Of a stretch of 41,713 nucleotides of DNA, positions 19,866 through 24,836 are shown piece after piece. Source of the DNA: Alphaproteobacteria bacterium (lineage in GTDB: Bacteria; Pseudomonadota; Alphaproteobacteria; SHNJ01); contig SHNJ01000013.1 of the NCBI GenBank assembly GCA_004295055.1, positions 1-41,713 of the forward strand. The letters run 5' to 3'. Made by a program: the position numbers and the translations under genes. A model generated the notes under the pieces. That model had not been told where the DNA came from. It did no database searches and saw nothing but the letters and a program-made list of their open reading frames with translations. Every line of letters starts with the position of its first letter. Positions within the stretch are counted from its first letter, which is position 1.

Positions 19866-21119
19866 TTATCTTCCCCGGGTTGGTATGGTCTGTTCCACAA
19901 TCGCGGCAGCGGCGGTTTCCGCGGTAAAGGTTGCGGCTGGTTTTTTGGCGGCACCGTGTGGCGACATTAGCGCTTGAGCCTCTGACGTTTCCGTATAAAG
20001 TTTAAAAGCGCCCGGTATCTCCCGTTCATAGTGCGGTTTTACAGGCCACTGCATGCCCAGGGCTGACGTTCCGCCTTTTCCCGATTTTTGTTTTGTTATA
20101 TGACTGTGCGCCTCGAAAATTGCGCCGGCCATAAAATCCGTCCAAGCCACAGGCGGGTTTTGGCGCGCGCACCAGTTAGTAGCGTGCTTGTGATGTATGC
20201 CAAACACGTCATCCAATACCATGATTTGAATATCTTCCATCCAGGGTTGAATCCACGCGCGCCCTGATGGAATGTTTTTAAAAATTTGTGGCAATGCTTC
20301 GGTAAGTTTCCCTTCTGTAGCGCGATTCAAAATAATCGCGGCTGCTATAACCGGATGGAGCATGTGTATATCGTCGCTGATACTAACTTCGCGCATCAGC
20401 AACGTTGTGCAATCCAATAGGCGTTTGGCATAAAGATTCATATGTCCTAAACCAAATGCATCTATAAACCGTTGGCTTGGATTGTCTAAAACTTCCGGCA
20501 TTTTTATATTGCCGGGTTTTCTGTTGGCGGCTAAGGCCACCTGCGCATCGAAAGCCTTTTTCCATGGGGAACGGTCATCTATTACTAGCGGCCTAAATTT
20601 GCGTTCACGGCCTGGCGGAGTTTCGGTGGCGCCGGCGTTCGGTGCCCCAGAATTTGAATCTGACTGGCTGTGAGGTAATTTGGCGATTGGGGTAGGGACA
20701 GTGTTTGACTGATCACATGCATTGATCAGTTGACTGATAATCCGGTAATGTTCAGCCTTGATTTGCGCAATTTCGCCGCGCGAAGCCTTTTCCAGCCATT
20801 CTTTACGTTTTTGCGGATTGCGTATGTCGTTAGCTTCCAATTGCTGCAGCATCTGCCAAATGACCTGGCGGTGTGGCGGGGTAAAGTTGCCTGTAAAGCC
20901 CAGCAATTCTTTTAATCGATTGACTTGGTACCCGGCATCCGTCGCTTTCGCTGTGCTTGTTAAATATCGCATCAAAATGATTGGATCGCGTTTTGCCAAT
21001 CCCAAAACCGTTATCTTGGCCGCTATTTTTTCAAGCGATGCGGCAATAGCCGGGTCGGTTTCTGATAATTCCAGGGCGTTATCCGGTAAAGAGTTATCAG
21101 GTGGTGTTGGATTTGACAT
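19866..21119 (-). CDS. Unknown protein D (operon partner of the lysozyme-like gene)
   Basis: A 417-residue protein of no family I recognise. It has an N-terminal helical region (about 20-140), a low-complexity Ser/Pro/Asn linker around 140-175 (PHSQSDSNSGAPNAGATE), and a C-terminal region with His-rich patches (FGIHHKHATNW, FEAHSHITK) that could bind metal, although no standard motif is complete. There is no signal peptide or membrane span. It ends in RGR. The gene begins 47 bases after the stop of gene E on the same strand, so the two are probably cotranscribed. No good ribosome binding site precedes the ATG. Confidence 0.75.
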   Translation of the reverse strand: MSNPTPPDNSLPDNALELSETDPAIAASLEKIAAKITVLGLAKRDPIILMRYLTSTAKATDAGYQVNRLKELLGFTGNFTPPHRQVIWQMLQQLEANDIRNPQKRKEWLEKASRGEIAQIKAEHYRIISQLINACDQSNTVPTPIAKLPHSQSDSNSGAPNAGATETPPGRERKFRPLVIDDRSPWKKAFDAQVALAANRKPGNIKMPEVLDNPSQRFIDAFGLGHMNLYAKRLLDCTTLLMREVSISDDIHMLHPVIAAAIILNRATEGKLTEALPQIFKNIPSGRAWIQPWMEDIQIMVLDDVFGIHHKHATNWCARQNPPVAWTDFMAGAIFEAHSHITKQKSGKGGTSALGMQWPVKPHYEREIPGAFKLYTETSEAQALMSPHGAAKKPAATFTAETAAAAIVEQTIPTRGR

Positions 21120-21166: not shown

Positions 21167-22402
21167 TTACCGTACGCGTTCCATAGCAGAGGACAAGCGC
21201 GTAATGCCGGGATCGGAAACCCCTACTGCCGTTGGAATGGCATTTTGAATGGCTGGCCACTGTTCTTGAAAATTCTGAAAGCCTTCAACATCAAATGGGT
21301 TTAATGGGGTGCTGCGTTGTCTAAATCCGCTGAGCATTTTTAAACTTAAATCTTGGCCAGTTGTGGATTTTAAGAATGTGGCTGCTTCGGTATAGCGGCG
21401 AACACGCAAACGCGGATCTTTTTTTACATTGCAGCGTAAGGCGATTTCACACGCGGCATTTTTCCAATCTTTCTGCTGGATATACCCCAGAAGCCCCTCG
21501 CCAACCAAACCAGGGTTATTGATACACAAGGAAACCAAAGTAATTTTGGCGCCTGGCGGCAATTTATCGAAATCCATTCCCCGGCTGTTGAACTTGTTGT
21601 TTAGGATTTTCATGCGTTTTGCCAAGTCGGCTTCAAATAAAGCTATTACTTGTTCCGCATTTAAACTTTTTTCACCATTCAAGTATCCCTGGAATTCTTT
21701 GTTGTCGCATGGGATAGTCTCGCGGAATGTGATGCGGTTGGCTTCGACATCCAGATTGAAACCTATGCCGATGGTTCGTTTGTTCGCAGTACATTTATAT
21801 TGGCAGGACCTTATGCCTTCGGCGTGAAATATGAATTCGCGCAAAGCGCGATCATAAGATGGCATAGTGCTGATATGATCGCGTAACGATCTTTCAATGC
21901 TGACATCAGGGCTAAGGCCCATTTGCAGTGGGCCCGACTCGACAGTGCCTAAACTAGACGTATGAAGCGATGGAATTGGTTTTTGTATGTCCGGCACTGT
22001 TGGTGCGGCGGGAGTAAGAGATAAATTTGAAGAATATGGAACTGGTTCGAGTGGTGTAGCCGGGCCAGATCTTGCACCGCCGAAATTGAATATATTAAAT
22101 GATGGAGTTGGTTCAAGTGCAGAAGTTGCTGGCGGATTCGAAGGTATGATGGCGGCTTGAGCGCTGTTAGATTTGGAAGTGGAACCCGATAAAACAGATA
22201 GGCTAAGGAAAAGGGTGGTCATACTGGCGGTAAATGCCAGCAAAATATTCAAGGCTCGATCAGGCAGAATTTTATGTGCGAGTGGGGAGTTCACCATCCG
22301 CGAATAAAGAGATCTTTGCGGAGGAATAGTTCTTGGGTGCACAGGATTTATCTGTGCACCAGGAGGTCTCACGCCGCCTGATTTGGTGATGGCTCTAGTC
22401 AT
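21167..22402 (-). CDS. Membrane-anchored GH24 (T4-lysozyme-like) protein with Cys in place of Asp20
   Basis: A 411-residue protein. The basic N-terminus and one membrane span at about 51-72 suggest an inner-membrane anchor with the bulk in the periplasm. A Pro/Ser-rich linker (about 75-165) follows, then a lysozyme domain (about 185-330). Residues 195-214 align without gaps to T4 lysozyme 11-30: E195 matches catalytic Glu11, Y202 Tyr18, T210 Thr26, and the TIGIG strand is kept, but C204 replaces catalytic Asp20. The later SLCINNPGLVGEGLLGYIQQ also fits GH24. It would cut or bind peptidoglycan. I start at the ATG at 22402; a TTG six codons upstream is less likely. It is followed by gene D and ends in RVR. 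Confidence 0.8.
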   Translation of the reverse strand: MTRAITKSGGVRPPGAQINPVHPRTIPPQRSLYSRMVNSPLAHKILPDRALNILLAFTASMTTLFLSLSVLSGSTSKSNSAQAAIIPSNPPATSALEPTPSFNIFNFGGARSGPATPLEPVPYSSNLSLTPAAPTVPDIQKPIPSLHTSSLGTVESGPLQMGLSPDVSIERSLRDHISTMPSYDRALREFIFHAEGIRSCQYKCTANKRTIGIGFNLDVEANRITFRETIPCDNKEFQGYLNGEKSLNAEQVIALFEADLAKRMKILNNKFNSRGMDFDKLPPGAKITLVSLCINNPGLVGEGLLGYIQQKDWKNAACEIALRCNVKKDPRLRVRRYTEAATFLKSTTGQDLSLKMLSGFRQRSTPLNPFDVEGFQNFQEQWPAIQNAIPTAVGVSDPGITRLSSAMERVR

Positions 22403-22457
22403 AAAATCTCTGTACCCCAAAAATTAAATTAATTACATGTTTTTAATGATTTATACT

Positions 22458-23087: not shown

Positions 23088-24836
23088 TTAGCGCCAGGCG
23101 ATCTTGGCGCCTTTTTTGCCGTCTTTCAACGTGGCAATTTTTTGCTGCGTGTCCGCCAGAGCCAGTTTAAATTTCTGCAATTCCTTGCCAGCCAGTTCGC
23201 GGCCGGTGGCGAATTTTACGCCCAACGGATTGATTTTGCGCACGCCGCGATGGACTTCGTAATGCAAATGCGGACCGGTGGAAAGGCCGGTCGAACCGAC
23301 ATAGCCGATCACATCGCCTTGATGTACCCGTCCGCCAACGTTCAATGTTTTGGCATATCGGCTTAGATGGCCATAAGCGGTCGCGTATTCGCGGTTATGC
23401 TGAATTTCAATATAATGGCCGTAACCGCCATTCCATCCTTTTTGTTTTACAACGCCGTCACCGGCGGCAAGAACCGGCGTTCCCATACCAGCGCCGAAAT
23501 CCACGCCTTCATGCATTTTGGAATAACCCAGAATCGGATGGCGGCGCATGCCGAAACCGCGTGTAATCCGCGCACCGTCGACTGGCGTGCGCAATAAAGC
23601 CTTCCGCACCGATTTACCTTCAGCGGTGAAATAATCCGCGCGCGTGTCGTCTTGCGGCTTGTAACGGAAAATTTTCAATTCCTTGCTGCCATATTTCAGA
23701 TTGGCAAAAACCATATTGCCTGGTTTTACGAAACGGCCTTCTTCGTCATAGATTTCTTCGAATGCGACTTCGAATTTATCCCCGGAATGAACTTCGCGCT
23801 GAAAATCGACGTCATAGGAAAATACCCGGATCATATCCGATAAAACGCTTTGCGGAATGCCCGCTTTTTTGGCGGCTTCCGACAGGCTGTTATTGATCGT
23901 GGCTGTGATGACATTCATTCGCACTTCGACCGGGCGGGATTCGGATTTGGCTTTGAACTTATTGCCCGTGCGCGAAATCATAATGCGCTGGTCATGCGTT
24001 GGGGTAAAAGTAACCTGATCGATGGCACGAATGCTATTGTCTGCAACGGTTTGTTTGGCGTCTTTCGCTTTGCCTTTTGGTTTATCCGGTTGCACCGGCT
24101 GATCGGAAAATACGATGGTGATTTCTTCGCCGATATCGATGGTTTTCGGATTTAAAATGGTTTTTAAGGCCGAGGTAATCGCACCAGCTTGCTTTTTATC
24201 GACACCGGCGGAAATAAGGGCGTTGTTAAAGCTTTCGCCGCGCGCCAATTTAATGGTTTTTTGCTCGGCTTTTAAGGCCAGGGATTGCTCGCCATAGTTA
24301 TTGGCTTCGCCCGATAAACTTTCTTTATCCGTGGCCACATCGTCGTTCATGTCGTTCTGGGTCGGCAATGCCGCATCCGCCGTGCCGATGGGATTCAGGC
24401 TTTTGGCAAAATCATTCGCATCGTTTAGAAACTTGGCATAAATATGATTGATCGGCTGATTGGGCGGTTCTTCATATCGGCCGGTGGGCGAGCTTGCGGC
24501 AATCAAGGCAAATAACAAAATCAAAGCGCCGGCATAAAGATTGCGTTTGTTGGCAAGCTGCTTGAATTGTATTGGATTGAATTGAATTTTGCGCCAGGAC
24601 GCCAATTTCGGCGTGGCCAAGGCGGGGATTTTAGGCAGGTCTGGTAGTGCCGACAGGGACGTGGAAGGTATATCGATTTCAATATCTTGATTCAAAAAAT
24701 CGGCGATTTTGCGCAAATCGGCTTTGACCAATGGCAACTGTTTTTGGGTGAATGCCATGACGGCATCAAAGCCAACGGCCAGATACCAATCAATCTCTCG
24801 CAACGCATTAATGAATCGCGTTTTAAAGTTCTGCAA
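23088..24836 (-). CDS. M23 family peptidoglycan DD-endopeptidase (MepM-like)
   Basis: A 582-residue zinc peptidase that cleaves peptide cross-links in periplasmic peptidoglycan. A cytoplasmic N-terminal stretch of about 98 residues and one membrane span at about 99-115 precede a linker, an OapA/LysM-like regulatory region (about 195-300) and the C-terminal LytM domain. Zinc and catalytic residues H442, D446 (HEGVDFG), H523 and H525 (GPHLHYE) keep the exact spacing of LytM. All are present, so it should be active. The 98-residue cytoplasmic extension is longer than in E. coli MepM. A perfect 14-bp palindrome, TCTTTAATTAAAGA, lies 24 bases upstream of the ATG at 24860-24873. Confidence 0.93.
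   Translation of the reverse strand: MQNFKTRFINALREIDWYLAVGFDAVMAFTQKQLPLVKADLRKIADFLNQDIEIDIPSTSLSALPDLPKIPALATPKLASWRKIQFNPIQFKQLANKRNLYAGALILLFALIAASSPTGRYEEPPNQPINHIYAKFLNDANDFAKSLNPIGTADAALPTQNDMNDDVATDKESLSGEANNYGEQSLALKAEQKTIKLARGESFNNALISAGVDKKQAGAITSALKTILNPKTIDIGEEITIVFSDQPVQPDKPKGKAKDAKQTVADNSIRAIDQVTFTPTHDQRIMISRTGNKFKAKSESRPVEVRMNVITATINNSLSEAAKKAGIPQSVLSDMIRVFSYDVDFQREVHSGDKFEVAFEEIYDEEGRFVKPGNMVFANLKYGSKELKIFRYKPQDDTRADYFTAEGKSVRKALLRTPVDGARITRGFGMRRHPILGYSKMHEGVDFGAGMGTPVLAAGDGVVKQKGWNGGYGHYIEIQHNREYATAYGHLSRYAKTLNVGGRVHQGDVIGYVGSTGLSTGPHLHYEVHRGVRKINPLGVKFATGRELAGKELQKFKLALADTQQKIATLKDGKKGAKIAWR
23091..23117 (+). terminator. Intrinsic terminator inside the end of the M23 gene
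   Basis: GCGCCA (23091-23096) pairs with TGGCGC (23105-23110) around an 8-base loop, followed by TTTTTT at 23112-23117. It serves the plus-strand membrane-protein gene ending at 23077, yet most of it is coding sequence for the last residues of the convergent peptidase. Confidence 0.75.

Follow-up and report, generated by a model that had tools for sequence, protein, structure and literature searches.

The window analysed here, the whole 41,713-nucleotide stretch of alphaproteobacterial DNA, contains a gene whose product resembles T4 lysozyme around the active site but has Cys in place of the catalytic Asp20. The preliminary description of this locus took Cys to be an unusual replacement at that position and proposed a natural, possibly redox-sensitive active site, switched by a disulfide with a second cysteine four residues earlier. 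This raises the question whether the gene encodes a redox-controlled lysozyme, a decayed domain or an ordinary enzyme of its family. We consider it likely that this chromosomal gene encodes a muramidase that is tethered to the membrane, acts in the periplasm and carries a Cys-type GH24 domain.

Counted from the ATG at 22402, E195, C200, Y202, C204 and T210 are found where they had originally been placed, so the residue numbering is correct, and the stretch 21791-21820 of the minus strand runs from codon E195 through codon C204. An in-frame TTG at 22420, six codons 5' of the ATG, gives an alternative version of 417 aa, which is the form given by the ORF finder. The hydrophobic segment ILLAFTASMTTLFLSLSVL is preceded by eight K/R and one D/E, a layout that recurs in both homologues described below, and is predicted to be either an N-in signal anchor or a signal peptide. 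Coordinates are collected in Table 1.

Table 1. Features of the lysozyme gene and of the ORF downstream of it (window positions).
Feature	Positions	Strand	Basis or remark
GH24 (T4-lysozyme-type) membrane-anchored muramidase gene, predicted	21167..22402	-	411 aa from ATG 22402
Single N-terminal hydrophobic segment ILLAFTASMTTLFLSLSVL, residues 53-71	22190..22246	-	hydropathy only
Pro/Ser-rich linker, residues 79-182	21857..22168	-	17 Pro and 17 Ser of 104
GH24 catalytic domain, residues 183-345	21368..21856	-	viral profile match and predicted T4-lysozyme fold
E195, catalytic Glu11 equivalent	21818..21820	-	invariant in 3/3 subfamily members and 35/35 aligned GH24 domains
C200 (E+5), not conserved	21803..21805	-	Lys/Gln in homologues
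Y202, Tyr18 register	21797..21799	-	identical in both homologues
C204 (E+9), equivalent of T4 Asp20 and P1 Cys51	21791..21793	-	3/3 subfamily members
T210, Thr26 equivalent	21773..21775	-	invariant (3/3 subfamily members; 35 aligned GH24 domains)
C232 in CD motif, predicted loop between two helices	21707..21709	-	Cys in 3/3 subfamily members
417-aa ORF, probably co-transcribed with the lysozyme gene	19866..21119	-	directly downstream

The protein carries a complete GH24 domain, T4-lysozyme-like as had been proposed. By phmmer the stretch beginning at E195 was aligned to T4 lysozyme without gaps, with E195, Y202, C204 and T210 in register with T4 residues 11, 18, 20 and 26; Glu11, Tyr18 and Thr26 are kept and Cys stands exactly at the Asp20 position. 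The phmmer matches were weak (E-values of 0.005-0.02, the engineered D20C mutant 1QTZ being among the top matches), as was that to Pfam PF00959 (15.8 bits, below the cut-off of 22.3); PHROG_7 (endolysin) matched with E=5e-11. A GH24 profile was built from viral sequences alone, using 202 non-redundant viral GH24 domains. It scored 51.3-51.9 bits over residues 183-345 (profile positions 9-153), covering the whole domain, while 1000 shuffles reached at most 3.9 bits. For the bare motif E-G-x5-Y-x7-T-I-G the chance expectation in the window is 0.00 occurrences. Modelling had been suggested in the preliminary description; an AlphaFold model made from a 35-row alignment has the T4-lysozyme fold, and its pLDDT exceeds 90 near the active site and in most of the domain. 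The Foldseek matches of this model were T4 lysozymes and chains carrying a T4-lysozyme fusion, 1QTZ among them, with a target-normalised TM of about 0.7 between the predicted domain and T4 lysozyme structures. Three features of GH24 membership, namely the Glu-x8-(Asp/Cys)-x5-Thr triad, the predicted fold and a whole-domain profile match, are present. The protein differs from T4 lysozyme and its D20C mutant, whose Glu11/Tyr18/Thr26 register it shares and whose fold it is predicted to share, in its extra helices, its linker and its N-terminal hydrophobic segment, and from the T4 wild type in having Cys for Asp20 and Phe for His31. The latter substitution had been noted correctly; the position varies widely among other GH24 enzymes too.

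Is Cys at position 20 then exceptional? The GH24 family motif has been published as Glu-x8-(Asp/Cys)-x5-Thr (PMC8228626, PMC3556154, PMC4640515), and P1 lysozyme, with Glu42/Cys51/Thr57, is given in the same literature as a Cys example or listed among the bearers of the motif (PMC3556154, PMC4640515, PMC8228626). Viral contigs were searched with a motif in which residue 20 was left free; since some codons were fixed this is a rough sample. Among the 80 viral matches listed there were 40 with Asp, 39 with Cys and one with Pro, the last a clear chance match. On a FastTree phylogeny of 205 domains, built with the Asp/Cys residue masked, at least 37 changes between Asp and Cys are required, versus 70 with shuffled labels. 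C-type motifs were also found in 22 of 289 sampled alphaproteobacterial genomes, against two matches for a reversed control pattern. The free-position count, the tree and the literature together rule out that Cys is an unusual replacement: it is one of the two standard residues of the family. The accompanying statement that T4 lysozyme with Asp20Cys stays active holds, in that a passage of PMC8228626, citing Hardy and Poteete 1991, states that this mutant retains activity. Because Cys is one half of a normal Asp/Cys choice, its presence is no special evidence for redox control.

Two full-length homologues that share this layout were identified (L002, the same as L021, and L003, the same as L022), with an overall identity of about 25-29%. 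The anchored subfamily thus comprises three members, all from metagenome or draft assemblies, and searches of the class, the phylum and the order of G033 returned no full-length members beyond these same three. Each has one N-terminal hydrophobic segment preceded by mostly positive charges, followed by a linker, which is Pro/Ser-rich in the window protein, and then the GH24 domain. E195, Y202, C204 and T210 are identical in both homologues and E-x8-C-x5-T is retained; residue 204 is not random and the Glu195 position has not been lost. The invariance of E195, C204 and T210 favours, as judged from conservation, a live C-type muramidase over a decayed binding domain, so that the original idea of an active site rather than a dead enzyme is likely right. 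The suggested test of whether both cysteines are conserved came out positive for C204 (3/3), not for C200, which is replaced by Lys in one homologue and by Gln in the other.

Other readings have to be weighed against this conservation. SpmX of Caulobacterales reportedly has a catalytically dead, co-opted GH24 domain (Randich et al.), and the window protein might be of the same kind: it comes from the same bacterial class, has a chromosomal setting, is rich in linker and shows weak similarity to Pfam's phage lysozyme. Like the window protein, SpmX is encoded on an alphaproteobacterial chromosome and combines a GH24 domain with a proline-rich region. Its GH24 domain is at the N-terminus and its membrane segments are at the C-terminus; the window protein has the reversed domain order and an intact triad. 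That all three triad residues are kept among members less than 30% identical disfavours a dead enzyme, and we regard this reading as unlikely, although a domain with an intact triad could still be used mainly for binding. Conservation also bears on the disulfide switch, according to which a C200-C204 bond would block the active site and be opened to switch the enzyme on. In favour of this switch, the window protein has both cysteines, its domain probably lies in the periplasm, and in P1 Lyz a disulfide that includes the active-site Cys keeps the enzyme inactive (PMC3556154). However, not only is C200 Lys and Gln in the homologues, but Cys five residues after the catalytic Glu (E+5) is found in just 1/117 viral C-type and 0/116 viral D-type enzymes, versus 33/117 C-type enzymes (and 17/116 D-type) at the P1-type E+2. 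The model places C200 within the first beta strand (model positions 38-43) and C204 immediately after it. Residues four apart on an extended strand are about 12-13 Å apart between alpha carbons, normally too far for a disulfide, which makes a C200-C204 bond unlikely. Conservation and predicted strand geometry thus argue against this disulfide, and a switch built on it appears extremely improbable.

In the viral_contigs sample (L023-L262), the sequence EGC, with Cys two residues past the catalytic Glu, is frequent among C-type and D-type GH24 enzymes alike. As it occurs in D-type enzymes too, E+2 Cys alone is no marker of P1-like disulfide caging. The caging cysteines of P1 Lyz are Cys44, the E+2 residue, and Cys13; the window protein has Ile197 at E+2, and its E+5 Cys is not conserved. 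Apart from C204, C232 is the only Cys conserved in the whole subfamily, and a C204-C232 redox pair might cage the enzyme in analogy to P1 Lyz with different residues. That these are the only two cysteines retained in three diverged members speaks for such a pair, yet the predicted inter-helix loop with C232 comes long after the hairpin of the active site, and this Cys could have a structural role or be conserved by chance among three sequences; we hold such a pair to be quite unlikely. Very unlikely, in our view, is the wider idea that chromosomal C-type GH24 muramidases tethered to the membrane make up a small subfamily in Alphaproteobacteria and use C204/C232 as a periplasmic redox switch when the cell remodels its own wall, with a caging scheme unlike that of P1 Lyz.

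The source genome is a 1.95-Mb assembly of 37 contigs with an estimated completeness of 99%. The neighbours of the lysozyme gene include ispG (GcpE), hisS, prfA, clpB, thiC and an M23 peptidase, and no phage genes were identified among them. A tblastn search against phages gave one weak match, to a tail lysozyme, and a search of viral_contigs gave no homologue; together with the housekeeping neighbours this led us to reject a phage or prophage origin of the locus. Housekeeping neighbours and the lack of an identified phage gene among them point to the cell's own, or a long-domesticated, enzyme. The 417-aa ORF downstream has no Pfam or NCBIfam matches; a weakly similar gene occupies the same place in a genome of the same family (BLASTP E=3e-4, 102 aa), whereas in the third genome no counterpart is found downstream of the lysozyme gene and the next gene is convergent.

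Other proteins with predicted cell-wall hydrolase domains were observed. The M23 peptidase has a Csd3_N2 domain (window 23088-24836, minus strand) and is a second such enzyme near the lysozyme gene. Separately, two large proteins end in pesticin/phage-lysozyme domains (matches to PF16754 and PF00959 above cut-off) and have an N-terminal region in common: G000:C7:69205-69582, L346:1471-3219 (-), faced by L346:657-1466 (+), and G000:C32:20497-20712, L347:1348-2811 (-), faced by L347:527-1351 (+). Each gene lies tail-to-tail with one for a secreted protein of about 270 aa; these two neighbours are homologous (BLASTP 3e-12), and both pairs are candidate lysozyme effector and immunity modules.

One of the closest known counterparts is phage P1 endolysin Lyz (GH24, PDB 1XJT). 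The two have in common the triad Glu-x8-Cys-x5-Thr, whose Cys stands where T4 has Asp20, a hydrophobic segment near the N-terminus and a probable site of action in the periplasm. P1 Lyz serves phage lysis and carries a SAR segment that can be released, whereas the window protein is chromosomal, about 410 aa long and has a long Pro/Ser linker, and its gene lies among housekeeping neighbours instead of the phage lysis cassette context of P1 Lyz-type SAR endolysins. The N-terminal segment of the window protein is weakly hydrophobic. We infer that the protein is exported, tethered and active and that it takes part in remodelling the cell's own wall. Export and anchoring would be brought about by the N-terminal hydrophobic segment, and the Pro/Ser-rich linker would let the GH24 domain reach the peptidoglycan. 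There the MurNAc-GlcNAc bond would be cleaved by E195, as the general acid, together with C204 and T210, in the manner of P1 lysozyme.

The locus adds an unannotated C-type GH24 example, an enzyme that apparently works for the bacterium and not for a phage. Its value is mainly corrective: when T4 lysozyme is the only comparison, Cys20 seems exotic, yet in the family as a whole Asp and Cys are alternatives of nearly equal frequency that have replaced each other many times.
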